In this document: in pieces, positions 1 through 14,090 of the stretch
How the letters are laid out: every line of letters begins with the position of its first letter
Position numbering within the stretch: position 1 is the first letter of the stretch
Source: Bacteroidales bacterium
Lineage (GTDB): Bacteria > Bacteroidota > Bacteroidia > Bacteroidales > Tenuifilaceae
Direction of reading: 5' to 3'
Length of the DNA: 36,107 nt
Assembly (NCBI GenBank): GCA_028680705.1
Contig: JAQUJY010000024.1
Coordinates: forward strand, 1 to 36,107
Made by a program: the position numbers and the translations under genes
The notes under the pieces: model-generated
Seen by the model: only the letters and a program-made list of their open reading frames with translations
Told to the model about the DNA's origin: nothing
Database searches by the model: none

Positions 1-413
1 AAGAAGAATTCGGAAAAAACTTTGCCCTGAAAAATATTTTTAGCTGCTTCTTTTAAAACAGGTAATCCTACTGGCGCATTGGCCAATATGTACCAAGCAA
101 CCCTTAACCAACCCAAAAACCAAGGCTGGGAAAAGAAATTATCAAGAACAATTGCAATAGATAGTAATAGGAATGAAATAATTGCGGGGAAAAAAATTCT
201 CAAAGTAATGCTGTTACCACTTGAATGGTTGTTAGCATTTTCGATTGTTTGTGCTTCCTTTTTTGTTCTTTCAAAAACAGGTTTAGTGGTAGCGCAACAG
301 CCATCCTCTTCGTGTTCGTTATTTAGTTGCAGGTCGGCAATAAGGTTTATTTTCTCTTCCAGGGTACAGCAAAGTTGCTTACCGTTTTCATCGTATATAT
401 GCTTATGGCTCAT
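1..413 (-). CDS. Heavy-metal translocating P-type ATPase (Zn/Cd/Co type), N-terminal part only
   Basis: The frame starts at the ATG complementary to 411-413 and runs off the left edge, giving about 137 residues. The cytosolic N-terminus carries two Cys-Cys pairs (near residues 15-16 and 39-40) and acidic/His residues that could bind soft metals. A hydrophobic helix follows from about residue 72. The visible part ends in a PVLKEAAKNIFQGKVF-type segment, which in ZntA/CadA-like ATPases lies just after the second membrane helix. The family exports zinc, cadmium, cobalt or lead across the inner membrane using ATP. The phosphorylation DKTG motif and the CPC metal site lie outside the window, so the metal cannot be assigned. 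The gene is divergent from a cupin gene, and no metal-responsive regulator is visible beside it. Confidence 0.72.
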   Translation of the reverse strand, partial: MSHKHIYDENGKQLCCTLEEKINLIADLQLNNEHEEDGCCATTKPVFERTKKEAQTIENANNHSSGNSITLRIFFPAIISFLLLSIAIVLDNFFSQPWFLGWLRVAWYILANAPVGLPVLKEAAKNIFQGKVFSEFF

Positions 414-562
414 TTTTTTAAGATGTGATTTATCGAGGGTGTTTGTGTGTGTTGGCTGTGTTCTTTTACTTCCCAGCCCATTCTCCTCCTAATAAGGACA
501 AAACATCTCCATAAAACTTTTGTTTAACGGATAAGAGAATTGAACCATTTAAAAGGCATACT

Positions 563-859
563 ATGGAAAAAGTAACCAAACCCAAAGTAAGGCTATTGGC
601 TAGAGGGGGAAAATTTGTTGCTAAACAGATGGAGGCTAACGCTGGAGACCTTTTGCCGAAACATCTTGCAAACATTGAGTCTGTACTGATTGTACTGGAA
701 GGTGAATGTGTTTTGGCATTGTCCGGTACTGAGCATGTACTAAAGCAGGGCGACAGTTTTATTGTGCCCCCAAAAATAGAGCATCAGATTAGGGTAATTG
801 AGGACTTTAGGGCTGTTCATGTGATGACCAATGATATAGAGTTCAAGTTTTTTGAATAA
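563..859 (+). CDS. Small single-domain cupin protein
   Basis: This 98-residue protein is one cupin barrel. Motif 1 is reduced: one His near residue 34 and a Glu near 39 are present, but the usual HxH pair is not. Motif 2 is clear as GDSFIVPPKIEH (residues 63-74), and a further His sits near residue 86. Cupins of this size are metal-binding enzymes or ligand sensors, often for sugars or small acids. The substrate cannot be read from the sequence. The gene is divergent from the metal ATPase with 149 bp between the starts, so shared control is possible but not shown. The next gene downstream is convergent and lies beyond a repeat-filled gap. Confidence 0.75.
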   Translation: MEKVTKPKVRLLARGGKFVAKQMEANAGDLLPKHLANIESVLIVLEGECVLALSGTEHVLKQGDSFIVPPKIEHQIRVIEDFRAVHVMTNDIEFKFFE

Positions 860-1291
860 GACATGTCTAGTGCCTTTTGTGGTTTCAATCTATTTTTATT
901 CATCTATCCAGTATTTTGAGATAAAACAGGCGATACAGCGTACTTTCTGTTGAAGCAATCTGTCCCTTTCCGTCATTGCAATAAAACTCATGTTTTATGG
1001 GAGTTTTAGAAGCAATCTATCACTCCGCACATTTATCATACCAATAATTTAGGCCTGTTGAGCAGATTTAGCTCGTAATAAAAGATTGCTTCTCCCGTCA
1101 AAGTACGTCGGTATCGCAATGACAGGAAGAGTGCGATTACGGAAAGTGGAAAGTGTAATGACAGGAAAAGAGGGGAGAGTGCAATGACGCAATAAAAGCA
1201 GTACTGACGCGGACTTGTTATCCATGCCATGCTAAACAAAAACAATCCAATTAATGCTCATACTATTTTGGGTATCAGTATTGTGGTTGTC
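860..1291. repeat. Intergenic gap holding decayed repeat element, copy A
   Basis: No gene is credible in these 432 bases between convergent genes. The stretch from about 930 to 1242 belongs to the repeat family also seen at 3296-3525 and 5126-5271. Bases 930-963 match 3366-3399 at 30 of 34 positions. This copy also contains an inverted arrangement: the complement of 1083-1117 again reads GCGATAC...CGTACTTT...GAAGCAATCT, matching the left arm. Its right end (about 1205-1241) carries the same closing block as the other copies, a GCGGACTTG-like stretch followed by GCTAAACAAAAA. The short open frames here are chance readings through the repeat. Confidence 0.75.
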
Positions 1292-7111: not shown

Positions 7112-7696
7112 TTGCACTTGGACAAGCAGCAGCTTATAGAGAGGTTGAGGTTTACTGCCAGAAAAATTGAGGTTATTCAACTTGCCGAATCGTTTGTTGA
7201 GTTGGGTGTAAAACCCGACGAACTTATGGCATTAAGTTTACACCCAGTTGAGTCGGTTCGTTTTCATTCTGCATGGGTTTTGGAGAATATTCTGTTGTTA
7301 AATCTTGAGGAACTCGACTATTATCTACTCGATTTAGTGTGCTATTTACCAAGGGTTAAAAGCGATAGCGTAAAGAGGCATTTTGCCAAACTGATAGCGG
7401 TAGGAGTAAATAGAATAGTAAAAAAAAGTACTGCAAAAATCTTTGTAAAAATTTTTTGGAGCGAAAATTTGGAGTTGCTTGAGGAAACGTGCTTCAGGTT
7501 GTTTGTTGATGAGAAAACGAAAAGTGCCGTGAAAGTTCATAGCCTTGAAATACTATACCTTTTATCAACAAGAGAGAGGTGGATTGCTGAAGAACTACCC
7601 AATATTATTGAGAACCAAATGTCGTTTGGTTCCCCATCAATACGCACTCGGGGCGAAGAGATTCTTAGAAAACTCTCCATCAATAATATCAACTGA
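7112..7696 (+). CDS. Helical (HEAT/ARM-like) repeat protein of unknown function
   Basis: This open frame of 194 codons has no usable early ATG. TTG at 7112 (or 7118) is the likely start, since an in-frame stop lies at 7094. The protein is predicted to be almost all alpha-helix, with paired amphipathic helices of about 35-40 residues (for example VKPDELMALSLHPVESVRFHSAWVLEN) typical of HEAT or armadillo repeats. No catalytic motif, signal peptide or membrane segment is visible. It lies 131 bp after miaA in the same direction and is convergent with the receiver/PEP-binding gene. A protein-binding scaffold role is a guess from the fold. Confidence 0.65.
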   Translation: MHLDKQQLIERLRFTARKIEVIQLAESFVELGVKPDELMALSLHPVESVRFHSAWVLENILLLNLEELDYYLLDLVCYLPRVKSDSVKRHFAKLIAVGVNRIVKKSTAKIFVKIFWSENLELLEETCFRLFVDEKTKSAVKVHSLEILYLLSTRERWIAEELPNIIENQMSFGSPSIRTRGEEILRKLSINNIN

Positions 7697-7720: not shown

Positions 7721-10705
7721 TTAAGCCAGTTTTACTCCCTCTTTAAGGATTACACCAATCCGTTTTTGCCCATCTATTATAATCTGTAAACTATTCTTTA
7801 GGCAAACATGCCTAAGCATTTCTGTTTCGTAACAAGCCTCCAGTTTCGATAGGTATTCGTAATCAATAAACCCTTCGTCCATGTATTCGTTAACCGTTAT
7901 GTAACCAACCCTAAACGATGTGAGGTTTTGGAAGAAGTGGGTGCCTTGGCTTGGGTCAATCTTATAGTTATTCTGGCCAGCCTCAACTATAATTTTAGCA
8001 GATGAAATTTGGGGCCATTTTACTGGTACACCCAGCCAACTATCGCTTGAGCCCCAGCGACCTGGACCTATAAGGATATAGTTTCTGTCATTATTGCTCA
8101 AGGTTTGGTTTAGCTGTTCCAATTCCGAGGCAATTTGATGTGTTTTAGATGGCGAGAACCTATCAGACTTAACATATACTATATCGAATACGTTGTTTAT
8201 AATACCGTTTCCTAAAGCCGATGGTGAGTACAGAACCATATCGCTTTTTTTAAGCGAATCAAAATCAGCATTTATGATGTCGCGGTTTTGTGCTATTGGC
8301 CTTATTTGTAGCATGCTAAATATCTTTGGCTTATCCACAGGAGTATTTAGGTTTACTGCAAATTCAATCTCAACGGGGTTGTTCATTTCCAATTGCCCAA
8401 TTTTCAGAATGTTCTGCAAAATTTCGGGCAACGGAAACAACTTGTGCTTTAGAATTGGTGCGAAACTAACTATTGGAACGCCTTTGCCCGTGTACCCATC
8501 GGATATTCGCTGGTTTTCAAAATCGTAGGTTGAGCCGCATGCTTCAAGGGTTCCATCAGCAATTGCATCCTTTATGCTAAGCTCTAAAATGTTTACACCA
8601 TCGTTGGTTGAGGGTTTAAAGCTTGAAGGGTTTAGGTCGAGCGCGTAAAAAGTTTTTTGTGTTTCTTTAATAGCCATTTCGGGCGTAGAGAGTTGCAGGA
8701 GTTTTTTTGGGTATTTAGGTGAGAATCTAAGTGATGGTTTTCCCTCAACCACATGCTTTCCAAGTCCAAGGGCAATGTTGGCAATCCCATCATCCGTTTT
8801 TTCAGGTTCAATGGGGTAAAAGTTTAGCGACCGTGCCACACCCGAGAGATTGGGGTAAAATTTTTCACCATGGGCAGAGCCCGTAACCTCCTGAAGAACG
8901 ATTGCCATTCGCTCTTCACCTATTGCGTTGTGCGTAGCTTTCATATATGCTTTGCTCTCTTTATAGTACACCGATGCATAAATGCACTTTATGGCTTGGC
9001 TAAGGTATTCGAGCATCTGCGTTGTATTTCCCTTTACGTTTGGTACCATATAGGTGGAGTATATCCCAGCAAATGGCTGATAGTGCGAGTCTTCAAGAAG
9101 ACTCGAGGAGCGGATTGCGAATGGGTTTTGTGCTACAGCAATCAATGCGCACAGGTCATCATTTATCTGAACGGGTAACGATGCTTTTAAAAAATGCTCA
9201 AGAATCTCATTGTTGTCAGCATTTGATAGAGCAATGGGGAATAGATTGTTCAACTCCATAAACTCTTCGAACACATCGGTACAGATAACCACCGTGCGGG
9301 GTATGCTAACTACTATATTATCAAACTTATGCATCAGGTTATTGTGTTTTATTACCTGATCGATAAAGGCCAAACCACGTCCTTTGCCACCCAGTGATCC
9401 ATCGCCAATGCGTGAAAATATTTGATATTTGTCGTAGCTGTCAGGGTAGAATTTGGCAATTATTCCCCTGCCTTTACTCTGGCGATAACCATCGATGGTA
9501 TCGACAATAAAATTTCGCACCTGATCAGTATTCTCAAAGTCTTCAGCAGCGATGTTCTTAAATATATCGGCAATGGGAAACAATGCTCTTGCTGTAAGCC
9601 ATTTTGTGAAGTGGTTGCGAGTAATATGGTACTGCAGCGAGTGGTCTGGTACTTGAAAGATAATTTCCTGTAACGATTTTAAATCTTTTGCTCTAATAAT
9701 TTCTTGACCAGTGGTAGGTTCTGTGAAAATAAAATCGCCAAAGGCAAAGTACTTTACCACAAAATTGTGCAGTTCTATTGATAGTGTTTTGGAGTATTTG
9801 TGGATAAAACCAACCTTTAACTGATTTGCTATAAGTTGATTGCTGCTGTCGGATGATTGCAAAAGGATTGGCAAATACGGATTGTCGGCCTTTACCATAT
9901 CAATTAAATTTACACCAGCTTGCATATCCATGGTGCCATTATGCGGATAGCTCATATCGGTAATAACGCCCAGCAGGTTGTGCTTATACTTTTTATAGAG
10001 CAATTCGGCTTGCTCATAGTTGCGGGCAAGCAAAACTTTAGGGCGTCCCCGCATGCGCAGCATTTTTTGGTGCTCATTTAAACCCTCGGTCATAAACTGC
10101 TCACTTTGTGTTAGCACAATCTTAAAAAGACTAGGAAGGTAAGCCGAGTAGTATCTTATTGAATCCTCAACCAGTATGATTGCCTGAACTCCGACCTTCA
10201 TAATATCGTGTTCAGCATTCATTGTGTCCTCAATAAGCTTAATTATTGCAAGCATTATACTGGCGTTGCCTAGCCATGAGAAAACATAATCTATTGCGCT
10301 AAGGTCTTCGCGTTTTAGCTTAAGCGATACCTCGCGCGAGAATGGGGTTAAAACAACGATGGGTTTATGTGGATATTCGCTCTTTATTTTTTTTGCAAGT
10401 GAAAAAGTGTCCATCCCCTCTACGTTGAGCATGGTAACAATAAGGTCGATAGGTTTTGTGGATAGTACATCAAAAGCCTCATTTGCCGAGGTTACCTGTA
10501 TAAATTTTGGCGGATATCTTAAGTTCAGATTGATGTACTCCTCAAAAATTTGCTCTTCAATTCGCCCGTCCTCTTCCAGCAGAAACGCATCATACTTGCT
10601 ACATACAAGCAGTATATTAAAGATTCTGCGCTTTAACAGCTGCTCAAAGGCTGTTTCAGCAAAGGAGTGTTTTTCTGCGTTTTTATTGGGAGAGTTAGAA
10701 ATCAT
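7721..10705 (-). CDS. Tandem receiver domains fused to a PEP/pyruvate-binding (PPDK N-terminal type) domain
   Basis: I start at ATG 10705 (MISNSPN...), giving 994 residues; the longer reading uses TTG. Residues 30-160 form a receiver-like fold whose acceptor position reads DLIVTMLN, without an acidic acceptor, so it is degenerate. Residues 175-320 form a second receiver with the acidic pair in LVEDS, a likely acceptor Asp near 250 (GVITDMSYP), Ser in LLQSSDS, and a Lys near 303 (FIHKYSK). From about residue 430 comes the ATP-grasp-like PPDK N-terminal domain: GDGSLGGKGRGLAF, NPFAIRSSSLLEDS, QPFAGIYSTY, and late GPGRWGSSDSWLG. The swivelling phospho-His domain and the PEP/pyruvate barrel of true PPDK or PEP synthase are absent. 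The reaction is unknown; phosphotransfer controlled by signalling is plausible. The gene is monocistronic. Confidence 0.85.
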   Translation of the reverse strand: MISNSPNKNAEKHSFAETAFEQLLKRRIFNILLVCSKYDAFLLEEDGRIEEQIFEEYINLNLRYPPKFIQVTSANEAFDVLSTKPIDLIVTMLNVEGMDTFSLAKKIKSEYPHKPIVVLTPFSREVSLKLKREDLSAIDYVFSWLGNASIMLAIIKLIEDTMNAEHDIMKVGVQAIILVEDSIRYYSAYLPSLFKIVLTQSEQFMTEGLNEHQKMLRMRGRPKVLLARNYEQAELLYKKYKHNLLGVITDMSYPHNGTMDMQAGVNLIDMVKADNPYLPILLQSSDSSNQLIANQLKVGFIHKYSKTLSIELHNFVVKYFAFGDFIFTEPTTGQEIIRAKDLKSLQEIIFQVPDHSLQYHITRNHFTKWLTARALFPIADIFKNIAAEDFENTDQVRNFIVDTIDGYRQSKGRGIIAKFYPDSYDKYQIFSRIGDGSLGGKGRGLAFIDQVIKHNNLMHKFDNIVVSIPRTVVICTDVFEEFMELNNLFPIALSNADNNEILEHFLKASLPVQINDDLCALIAVAQNPFAIRSSSLLEDSHYQPFAGIYSTYMVPNVKGNTTQMLEYLSQAIKCIYASVYYKESKAYMKATHNAIGEERMAIVLQEVTGSAHGEKFYPNLSGVARSLNFYPIEPEKTDDGIANIALGLGKHVVEGKPSLRFSPKYPKKLLQLSTPEMAIKETQKTFYALDLNPSSFKPSTNDGVNILELSIKDAIADGTLEACGSTYDFENQRISDGYTGKGVPIVSFAPILKHKLFPLPEILQNILKIGQLEMNNPVEIEFAVNLNTPVDKPKIFSMLQIRPIAQNRDIINADFDSLKKSDMVLYSPSALGNGIINNVFDIVYVKSDRFSPSKTHQIASELEQLNQTLSNNDRNYILIGPGRWGSSDSWLGVPVKWPQISSAKIIVEAGQNNYKIDPSQGTHFFQNLTSFRVGYITVNEYMDEGFIDYEYLSKLEACYETEMLRHVCLKNSLQIIIDGQKRIGVILKEGVKLA

Positions 10706-11191: not shown

Positions 11192-12322
11192 ATGATTTTA
11201 GGCTTATTGAAGGAGCATGGCTCCGAAACCCGTGTAGCGTTGCTTCCTGAAACCGTAAAAGTTTTTACTGACCTAAAGGTGGAAGTACTGGTGGAAGAGG
11301 GCGCAGGAGAATCTGCATTTGCGTCAAATTCCCAATATCAGGACGTTGGAGCAAAGGTCGTTTCGCGGTCGGAAGTGTTTGACAAGGCAGAAATACTGCT
11401 GCAAATTCAACCACCTGATGAAGGAGATATCCCGAAAATAAAGGAAAACCAAATTTGGATTAGCGTGTTTAATCCGCTTTGGGAAACAGAGTTGGTTAAA
11501 ACTTTCCTTAAAAAAGGGCTTACCTCTTTCAGTCTCGATTCTATTCCCCGTACTACAAAGGCACAAGCCATGGATATTCTATCCTCTATGGCAACAGTTT
11601 CGGGATATATGGCCGTGCTGGATGCGGCGTCGAAATTGCCTACTTTTTTCCCAATGTTCATGACAGCAGCTGGTACTATTCGTCCGGCCAATGTTCTGAT
11701 TTTGGGCGCAGGTGTAGCGGGATTACAAGCCATTGCCACATCGCGTAAATTGGGTGCACAGGTTCAGGTATTCGATGTTCGCTCAGCTGTTAAAGAAGAG
11801 GTAATGAGCTTGGGTGGAAAATTTGTGGAAGTGGAAGGCGCAGTGGAAGACAAAGCAGCTGGTGGTTATGCTGTTGAGCAAACAGAGGAGTTTAAGAAAA
11901 AACAGCAGCAAGCAATAAACGATCATGCAGCAAAAGCCAACGTGGTGATTTGCACCGCCCAAATTCCAGGAAAAAAAGCACCCTTACTGCTTCCTACGCA
12001 TGCCGTGGAAGCCATGAAGCCTGGTTCGGTAATTATCGATTTGGCTGCATCGAGTGGTGGAAACTGTGAGCTTACAAAAGATAACGAAACGATTGTTCAT
12101 AAAGGGATTACCATTATTGGACAGTCTAACTACCCCGCTCATAAGCCCATTGATGCAAGTCGGATGTTTGGTAAAAACGTGTTAAACTTCATGAAACTTA
12201 TTATCGACGATGAGGGTAACTTGAACCTCAATTTTGAGGACGAAATTGTTAAAGGAACTTGTATAACCCACAAGGGCGAAGTTTTTAACGAAAGGGTGAA
12301 ATTAATAATCGAAAAAGCATAA
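11192..12322 (+). CDS. pntAA: NAD(P) transhydrogenase subunit alpha part 1 (NAD(H)-binding)
   Basis: The 376-residue soluble dI component of proton-translocating transhydrogenase. It has the alanine-dehydrogenase/PntA fold, with RTTKAQAMDILSSMA (120-134) and the Rossmann loop GAGVAGLQAI (172-181). The mobile-loop Tyr lies in KAAGGYAVE (Y226). The length matches the separate PntAA of three-subunit enzymes rather than the fused E. coli PntA. It binds NADH and passes hydride to NADP bound on PntB, driven by proton entry. It is the first gene of a pntAA-pntAB-pntB operon, 4 bp before pntAB. The likely role is NADPH supply for biosynthesis. Confidence 0.96.
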   Translation: MILGLLKEHGSETRVALLPETVKVFTDLKVEVLVEEGAGESAFASNSQYQDVGAKVVSRSEVFDKAEILLQIQPPDEGDIPKIKENQIWISVFNPLWETELVKTFLKKGLTSFSLDSIPRTTKAQAMDILSSMATVSGYMAVLDAASKLPTFFPMFMTAAGTIRPANVLILGAGVAGLQAIATSRKLGAQVQVFDVRSAVKEEVMSLGGKFVEVEGAVEDKAAGGYAVEQTEEFKKKQQQAINDHAAKANVVICTAQIPGKKAPLLLPTHAVEAMKPGSVIIDLAASSGGNCELTKDNETIVHKGITIIGQSNYPAHKPIDASRMFGKNVLNFMKLIIDDEGNLNLNFEDEIVKGTCITHKGEVFNERVKLIIEKA

Positions 12323-12326
12323 TGAT

Positions 12327-12641
12327 ATGGAACAAGCATTGACATTTTTCTTTATGTATAAAGAAGCGATATTCATTATTGCTCTATCCATATTTGTGGG
12401 TATTGAGGTGATATCGAACGTGCCAGCAGTATTGCACACCCCACTCATGTCGGGTGCAAACGCAATTAGCGGTGTAATTATAGTAGGAGGGATTATCCTA
12501 GTGGGTCATGCCGATCTTACCACGTTTTCGTTGAATTTAGTGCTGGGTATTTTAGCACTCATCTTTGGTACACTGAATGTGGTTGGCGGTTTTGCCGTTA
12601 CCGATAGGATGCTCGAAATGTTTAAAAAGAAAAAAAAGTAA
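12327..12641 (+). CDS. pntAB: NAD(P) transhydrogenase subunit alpha part 2 (membrane)
   Basis: This 104-residue protein has three hydrophobic helices (about residues 13-30, 42-62 and 67-90) and a lysine-rich C-terminus. It is the small membrane part that, with the PntB helices, forms the proton channel (dII). Its short size is typical of the three-gene form. It begins 4 bp after pntAA and ends 6 bp before pntB, so co-translation is likely. Confidence 0.95.
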   Translation: MEQALTFFFMYKEAIFIIALSIFVGIEVISNVPAVLHTPLMSGANAISGVIIVGGIILVGHADLTTFSLNLVLGILALIFGTLNVVGGFAVTDRMLEMFKKKKK

Positions 12642-12647
12642 GCAATT

Positions 12648-14090
12648 ATGGATAAAATTTTAGGAACAATAAACGGTATGGATTTTACCATGGGCGATTC
12701 GCTACTTGAGCTAAGTTATCTAATTGCCGCACTTTTGTTTGTATATGGTTTAAAACTCCTCTCGCACCCAGCCACAGCACGTCGTGGAAATCTATGGGCA
12801 GCAGGTGGTATGGGATTGGCCATGATTACTACTTTGCTTCTTCATAAGAATGCTCAGGGCGTAGGAATTTCACTTCTCAATATTTGGATTATCCTTGCTT
12901 TTATTGGCGTTGGTTCTGTTATTGGTTGGATAATTGCCCGTAGGGTAAAAATGACTGCCATGCCACAGCTGGTGTCACTCTTTAATGCATCGGGGGGTGC
13001 AGCTTCGATGTTGGTTGCGCTTTTAGAGTATCCCAATGCAAAAGCCGGCGATATCAGCTCAATTTTGGTTACCGTACTCGGCTTAATTATTGGTTCAATT
13101 GCTTTTAGCGGAAGTATGATTGCATACGGAAAACTCGACGGGAAGGTGGGCGATATTAAGAAACCATTTATGACCTACGTTAATCTGTTATTGTTATTGG
13201 TAACATTGGCGTTGGGTGCATACATTGTAGTTTCTCCTAATCCTCCAACTGACTTAATATGGGCAATTTATGCCTTAATGGGTATTTCTTTGGTCTATGG
13301 GGTGATGTTTGTATTTCCCATTGGTGGTGCCGATATGCCTGTTGTGATATCGCTATTAAACGCACTTACCGGAGTTGCGGCTGCAATGGCAGGATTTATT
13401 TATGGAAATCAGGCCATGATTCTTGGTGGTATTTTGGTAGGAGCAGCAGGTATGATATTAACCATGCTGATGTGCAAGGCAATGAATCGCTCATTACTGA
13501 ATGTTATTATTGGCTCATTTGGTGGAGGCGGAGCAGCTGGTATTGAGCACGAACAGGGTACTATAAAAGAGGTGCAGTTGAGTGATGCGGCAGTTTTGTT
13601 AAGCTATTCGCAAAAAATTGTAATTATCCCTGGTTATGGCTTAGCTGTAGCGCAGGCGCAGCATATTGTTCATGAGTTGGATAGCCTATTGGAAGGAAAG
13701 GGAATTGAGGTAAAGTATGCCATTCACCCTGTGGCTGGCCGTATGCCTGGGCATATGAACGTTTTGCTGGCTGAAGCCGATGTTCCGTACGAGAAGTTGA
13801 TAGAGATGGATGCCATAAATCCCGATATGCCCAACGTTGATGTGGCAATTGTTATTGGAGCAAACGACGTGGTGAACCCTGCGGCATATGACGATCCGAG
13901 CAGTCCTATTTATGGTATGCCGATTATTGATGCGCATCTTGCAAAAAATATCATCATTATGAAGCGTGGAATGGGAAAAGGGTATGCTGGAATTGAAAAT
14001 TACCTGTTTTTTAACGATAAAACCCGCATGCTATTTGGCGATGCCAAAAGTTCACTTCAGAAATTGGTGAATGAAATTAAGAGTATGTAG
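12648..14090 (+). CDS. pntB: NAD(P) transhydrogenase subunit beta
   Basis: This 480-residue protein has about eight or nine membrane helices in its first 280 residues and a soluble NADP(H)-binding dIII domain at the end. dIII shows GYGLAVAQAQH (the glycine-rich turn), HPVAGRMPGHMNVLLAEADVPYE, GANDVVNPAA and MKRGMGKGYAG, all hallmark PntB segments. With PntAA and PntAB it couples inward proton flow to reduction of NADP by NADH. It is the last gene of the operon, followed by a terminator at 14171-14217. Confidence 0.97.
   Translation: MDKILGTINGMDFTMGDSLLELSYLIAALLFVYGLKLLSHPATARRGNLWAAGGMGLAMITTLLLHKNAQGVGISLLNIWIILAFIGVGSVIGWIIARRVKMTAMPQLVSLFNASGGAASMLVALLEYPNAKAGDISSILVTVLGLIIGSIAFSGSMIAYGKLDGKVGDIKKPFMTYVNLLLLLVTLALGAYIVVSPNPPTDLIWAIYALMGISLVYGVMFVFPIGGADMPVVISLLNALTGVAAAMAGFIYGNQAMILGGILVGAAGMILTMLMCKAMNRSLLNVIIGSFGGGGAAGIEHEQGTIKEVQLSDAAVLLSYSQKIVIIPGYGLAVAQAQHIVHELDSLLEGKGIEVKYAIHPVAGRMPGHMNVLLAEADVPYEKLIEMDAINPDMPNVDVAIVIGANDVVNPAAYDDPSSPIYGMPIIDAHLAKNIIIMKRGMGKGYAGIENYLFFNDKTRMLFGDAKSSLQKLVNEIKSM

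Follow-up and report, generated by a model that had tools for sequence, protein, structure and literature searches.

The closest described systems are PPDK and PEP synthase (PF01326 + PF00391 + PF02896) and rifampin phosphotransferase, in which a large rifampin-binding domain sits between the ATP-grasp and His domains. A precedent for the control of nitrogen assimilation is provided by GlnE/GlnD, where glutamine synthetase is under covalent control by a dedicated transferase. The combination of a receiver with a PPDK-type domain (REC-PPDK) has already been catalogued (PMC5847659), and PPDK is listed among the outputs of receivers that have lost their Asp (PMC4395418). The survey passages on REC-PPDK list the combination only and mention neither a His domain nor a link to glutamate dehydrogenase (GDH); as far as these passages go, the surveyed architecture is almost certainly that of the protein analyzed here. 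Literature searches combining GDH with receiver or dikinase yielded no paper on the function of the family, its His domain or the GDH link. The architecture is known, and mechanism and target are unrecognized in the papers searched.

The stretch of DNA analyzed, here called the window, comprises 36,107 nucleotides from a Bacteroidales bacterium of the Tenuifilaceae (GCA_028680705.1, contig JAQUJY010000024.1, positions 1–36,107 of the forward strand). A preliminary description had placed an open reading frame at 7721–10705 and had read its product as a degenerate receiver, a second receiver with a plausible acceptor Asp near residue 250, a PPDK N-terminal ATP-grasp-like domain and a conserved C-terminal GPGRWGSSDSWLG block, with neither a phospho-His domain nor a PEP barrel. 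The frame is indeed intact at these positions, and homologues with 88, 76 and 69% identity match it end to end. Residue numbers are counted from the Met at ATG 10705; an alternative upstream start at TTG 10714 is possible and would give 997 aa. A pseudogene or fusion artefact was ruled out by the intact frame and by full-length homologues across most Bacteroidales. In an AlphaFold2 model of the whole protein built from 28 homologues (pLDDT 85) the two receivers are followed by a helical linker, the ATP-grasp domain and a C-terminal alpha/beta domain, with the boundaries listed in the table. Convergent with the gene lies a frame for a 194-aa repeat-like protein (7112–7696, plus strand), which matches no Pfam family above cut-off and occupies the same position in L004, L005, L015, L019 and L020. 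On the other side NAD(P) transhydrogenase alpha and beta genes (11192–14090, plus strand) are divergently oriented; same-sized genes are found at this position in L004, the closest relative of the window copy.

Table. Features of the receiver-PPDK gene in the window and the basis of their assignment.
Feature	Position	Strand	Basis
Complete CDS, 994 aa from ATG 10705	7721..10705	-	stop 7721-7723
Receiver 1, degenerate (residues 27-164)	10214..10627	-	Pfam Response_reg; PorX receiver Z 14.5 for 27..161
Receiver 2, canonical (residues 172-322)	9740..10192	-	MicA receiver Z 14.9, rmsd 1.8 for 174..322
Codon of Asp250, predicted phospho-acceptor	9956..9958	-	conservation
Helical linker (residues 323-411), weakly DUF5752-like	9473..9739	-	PF19027
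PPDK_N ATP-grasp domain (residues 437-809)	8279..9397	-	Pfam E 1.5e-38; Z 26 to 5hv1 and 2ols
Predicted divergent swivelling phospho-His (phosphoryl-carrier) domain (residues 816-994)	7724..8260	-	AlphaFold2 + VIA-align
G-x-G-R-W-G loop after third strand of His domain, family signature	8051..8068	-	alignment
Codon of His923 in S-x-G-[ST]-H-F-F, predicted phospho-His	7937..7939	-	alignment, model

The two receivers were recovered both by Pfam, with two matching stretches (E 1e-9), and by structural comparison using VIA-align, with Z about 14 to receivers for residues 27–161 and 172–322. Receiver 1 is degenerate, as had been described: the fold is present without the acceptor Asp, and among 141 aligned family members the acceptor column holds mostly T, C, V or S and never Asp. 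Receiver 2 combines the fold with all residues characteristic of a response regulator, namely the acidic pair E180/D181, the acceptor D250, S284 and K303. D250, S284 and K303 are each kept in all 118 relatives that can be aligned at receiver 2, in agreement with the plausible acceptor predicted near residue 250, and Glu180 and Asp181 are present in 119 and 115 sequences, respectively, of the 141-member alignment. The linker scores 17.1 bits with PF19027 in the window protein, below the cut-off, and 25.6 bits against a cut-off of 23 in the relative L022. The HisKA/HATPase core of a histidine kinase gave no Pfam match in the window protein.

The ATP-grasp domain is equally clear, with rifampin phosphotransferase and PEP synthase as its structural matches, and chance similarity was rejected at E 1e-38. 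It contains the catalytic set GGK441, R532-S-S, E538-D539, E781 and Q800, that is the Lys, Arg, Glu and Gln typical of the PPDK/PEP synthase group. As these residues are invariant or nearly so in about 139 sequences, an active nucleotide site is to be expected. The PEP/pyruvate TIM barrel is absent as stated in the preliminary description: the open frame stops after the His domain, there is no Pfam match to a barrel and the model contains none. Likewise no rifampin-binding domain is inserted between the ATP-grasp and His domains, residue 809 being followed directly by the next domain at 816.

The claim that a phospho-His domain is missing did not hold. When the C-terminal 192 residues were modelled alone by AlphaFold2 from 46 diverse relatives, a confident model was obtained (pLDDT 91) with the secondary-structure order b-b-a-b-a-b-a-b. 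At the top of the VIA-align ranking stood a PPDK phosphoryl-carrier domain (2fm4; Z 6.7, rmsd 3.8, 118 of 128 residues in the alignment), and the other leading matches were rifampin phosphotransferase, PPDK 371–513, the C-terminal domains of pyruvate kinases and Enzyme I. Folds other than carriers scored mainly below about Z 5.2, with 2ioj (Z 5.8) as an exception. Since Z values of 6–7 lie below 8 and are modest, the assignment also rests on colinearity: a single full-length structural alignment spans the ATP-grasp and C-terminal domains of PPDK (1dik 6..510 versus 416..989 of the window protein), and the same holds for PEP synthase (2ols 4..463 versus 418..939). His923 is invariant in all 139 sequences with a letter at this column and forms the first residue of a helix in the model, which we take to correspond to the helix bearing the phospho-His of PPDK. 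The GPGRWGSSDSWLG block was found to be conserved in the family alignment.

Sequence methods do not see this domain. There is no Pfam match to PEP-utilizers in the C-terminus, Foldseek alone returned no significant match for the domain (best E 0.01) so that carrier domains emerged only after re-ranking by VIA-align, and when the profile of the C-terminal family was set against that of the His domains of PPDK and PEP synthase, built from six template sequences only, the probability was 0.2. We therefore claim no homology at the sequence level for this domain. Judging by the predicted fold, we regard the C-terminus as a phospho-His domain that has diverged beyond the reach of sequence methods; by predicted fold, then, a His domain is found within the last 250 residues, which the preliminary description had itself named as grounds for giving up its reading, and together with His923 it supplies the second module of the PPDK/PEP synthase group. 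This illustrates that a domain deemed missing may exist yet escape sequence profiles.

The family is nearly universal in Bacteroidales (172 of 198 genomes). It was found in 53 of 61 genomes of a Bacteroidaceae-like family delimited by a 16S motif and in 117 of 120 genomes of the genus Bacteroides, including all 70 of high quality; it also occurs in some of the other classes, with 49 of 296 genomes positive in a phylum-wide sample. We distinguished several forms. Class A, the type of the window protein, is arranged receiver-receiver-ATP-grasp-His and has about 1000 aa, and A' carries an additional N-terminal extension of 150–450 aa. Class B consists of ATP-grasp and His domains alone (about 581 aa). 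Class C (about 1065 aa) ends in a nucleotidyltransferase domain (NTP_transf_2). GxGRWG and SxG[ST]HFF are common to all forms, and complete sequences deviate from them in isolated cases at most. Classes B and C lack receiver 2 and keep His923 and the ATP-grasp residues.

Proteins in which the ATP-grasp and His module is fused to NTP_transf_2 are encoded at L012:9829-13017:-, L076 (8643 onward), L075, L077, L078, L079 and L082. Their genes often adjoin a GDH gene and a gene for a class B protein, so that classes B and C possibly form a two-enzyme modification cassette. A calcineurin-like phosphoesterase recurrently adjoins class C genes (L010:1846-2727:-; also L012, L074, L076, L077 and L078) and could remove the modification. 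The genome that contains the window also harbours, on contig C119 (G000; L057, L072), a 1364-aa open frame with PPDK_N and PEP-utilizers matches; the true PPDK is a different gene, on C30.

The commonest neighbour of the family genes is GDH (Pfam ELFV_dehydrog). Of 80 loci with flanks, 49 have a GDH gene within 6 kb and 32 have one within 0.7 kb; the locus sets were not picked by GDH content, although one set was picked for multiple or short copies and some loci are truncated. With one GDH gene in the 3.09 Mb of this genome, chance alone would place GDH in a 15 kb neighbourhood in about 0.5% of cases. At the remaining 31 of 80 loci, including 7 of 20 Bacteroides loci, GDH is absent within 6 kb, and the window copy has none either. 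The orientation of GDH to the family gene varies, being upstream, downstream, convergent or divergent with gaps down to 4 bp, and GDH-adjacent members occur in each deep branch of the family tree; the linkage is therefore not one inherited arrangement. Class B genes lie 24–41 bp from GDH. In this genome the sole GDH gene starts 147 bp after a paralogue of the window protein on contig C125. The window copy itself has probably lost the linkage, since in the tree it groups, with support, with a GDH-linked gene of Perlabentimonas, the second of a tandem pair.

Four relatives have genes for a histidine kinase and a response regulator situated between two GDH/PPDK-like pairs. This arrangement and the intact receiver 2 are consistent with the earlier suggestion that the receivers steer a phosphotransfer or nucleotide-dependent activity, which still stands apart from its assumption that no phospho-His domain is present. 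The kinase has a PAS domain and the regulator is of the LuxR type (L086:7313-9394 and matching places in L089, L090 and L091); both are candidates for the upstream signal source.

We tentatively propose, with confidence slightly short of even, that the protein is a receiver-controlled phosphotransferase combining the two leading modules of PPDK/PEP synthase without the barrel, and that GDH is its predicted partner. As the minimal class B proteins encoded beside GDH possess neither receivers nor a third domain, the acceptor of the His923 phosphate must be sought in trans and not on the same chain, and a receiver cannot serve as acceptor throughout the family. The simplest candidate is a partner protein encoded by the adjacent gene.

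It is less likely that the same relay from ATP-grasp domain to His serves a small-molecule phosphotransferase whose acceptor is a nitrogen or redox metabolite, GDH being a mere metabolic neighbour. Rifampin phosphotransferase is after all the closest full-length structural match, and a paralogue beside GDH and a window copy beside NAD(P) transhydrogenase make up a metabolic theme. But the protein has no counterpart of the rifampin-binding domain or the PEP barrel, class B is restricted to ATP-grasp and His domains, and receiver control together with the recurrent linkage to one gene suits a dedicated protein partner better. We consider it improbable that the protein is a nucleotide-sensing scaffold that binds ATP or ADP as well as GDH and alters GDH activity through binding, without phosphotransfer; the GDH linkage fits binding or modification equally, but the invariance of the ATP-grasp catalytic residues and of His923 across very divergent branches goes beyond the demands of binding. 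Least probable is a self-loading response regulator, in which His923 would pass its phosphate to Asp250, in the same protein or in a partner receiver, in a one-protein phosphorelay with protein binding as output: both residues are invariant where present, but classes B and C without receiver 2 retain His923 and the ATP-grasp residues, and the His phosphate therefore needs another use there.

For the receiver-controlled phosphotransferase we envisage the following steps. A histidine kinase would phosphorylate Asp250 of receiver 2, as its conserved residues suggest, and receivers and linker would then alter their hold on the ATP-grasp and His domains, turning the enzyme on or off. Judging from the catalytic set and the carrier fold, the ATP-grasp domain would use ATP to phosphorylate His923, and the His domain would swivel and hand the phosphate to a partner standing in pyruvate's place. 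Gene neighbourhood points to GDH as this partner, its activity presumably being raised or lowered by the phosphate. The window copy, now beside NAD(P) transhydrogenase genes, might act in trans on the sole GDH or have been re-targeted. Because its relatives repeatedly adjoin GDH genes, the receiver-PPDK protein is probably an unrecognized switch for ammonia/glutamate metabolism.

A 3-kb downstream segment reportedly restored GDH activity in E. coli in a study from 1996. According to its title, a trans-acting gene affects Bacteroides GDH activity (Baggio & Morrison 1996). We regard the identity of this factor with the receiver-PPDK gene as a lead only. A gene of the receiver-PPDK family immediately follows a gdh on its 3' side in L127, L128 and L157; other Bacteroides differ, and a Bacteroides genome whose 16S primer site is of the B. 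thetaiotaomicron type (G729, L161) has the family gene upstream of GDH, not downstream. For B. thetaiotaomicron the guessed locus tags BT_1970, BT_1971 and BT_1973 were searched; BT_1971 is a catalase (PMC4595636), which calls for caution, and a different gene may therefore adjoin gdhA in this species.

In Bacteroidales, among them dominant species of the human gut, GDH is a main route by which ammonia enters carbon metabolism, and little is understood of how its activity is controlled in this order. A gene close to the core genome, annotated only as a PPDK-like or receiver protein, would become a testable candidate for this control. If true, PPDK-type His-domain chemistry would extend from metabolites to the regulation of a metabolic enzyme.

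In comparison with known systems, the window protein shares with PPDK and PEP synthase an ATP-grasp domain with the full catalytic set and then a predicted swivelling His domain, with the His at the start of the equivalent helix and a colinear structural match. In contrast to these enzymes, it has no barrel and is preceded by two receivers, and its His domain carries GxGRWG and SxG[ST]HFF where theirs carry GGxTSHAA, with no detectable sequence similarity. Rifampin phosphotransferase (5hv1), the best match in Foldseek and VIA-align, likewise joins ATP-grasp and His domains without a PEP barrel, but has no receivers, whereas the window protein lacks the rifampin-binding domain. More speculatively, and on balance rather unlikely, the family might represent a new class of receiver-gated PPDK-type ATP-grasp/swivelling-His enzymes that reversibly phosphorylate GDH, a Bacteroidota counterpart of GlnE/GlnD and perhaps the trans-acting gene of 1996. 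By analogy, an ammonia-assimilating enzyme would be controlled covalently in both cases, and class C relatives carry a nucleotidyltransferase domain too; the fold differs, and transfer would presumably be phosphoryl here, whereas it is nucleotidyl in GlnE/GlnD.
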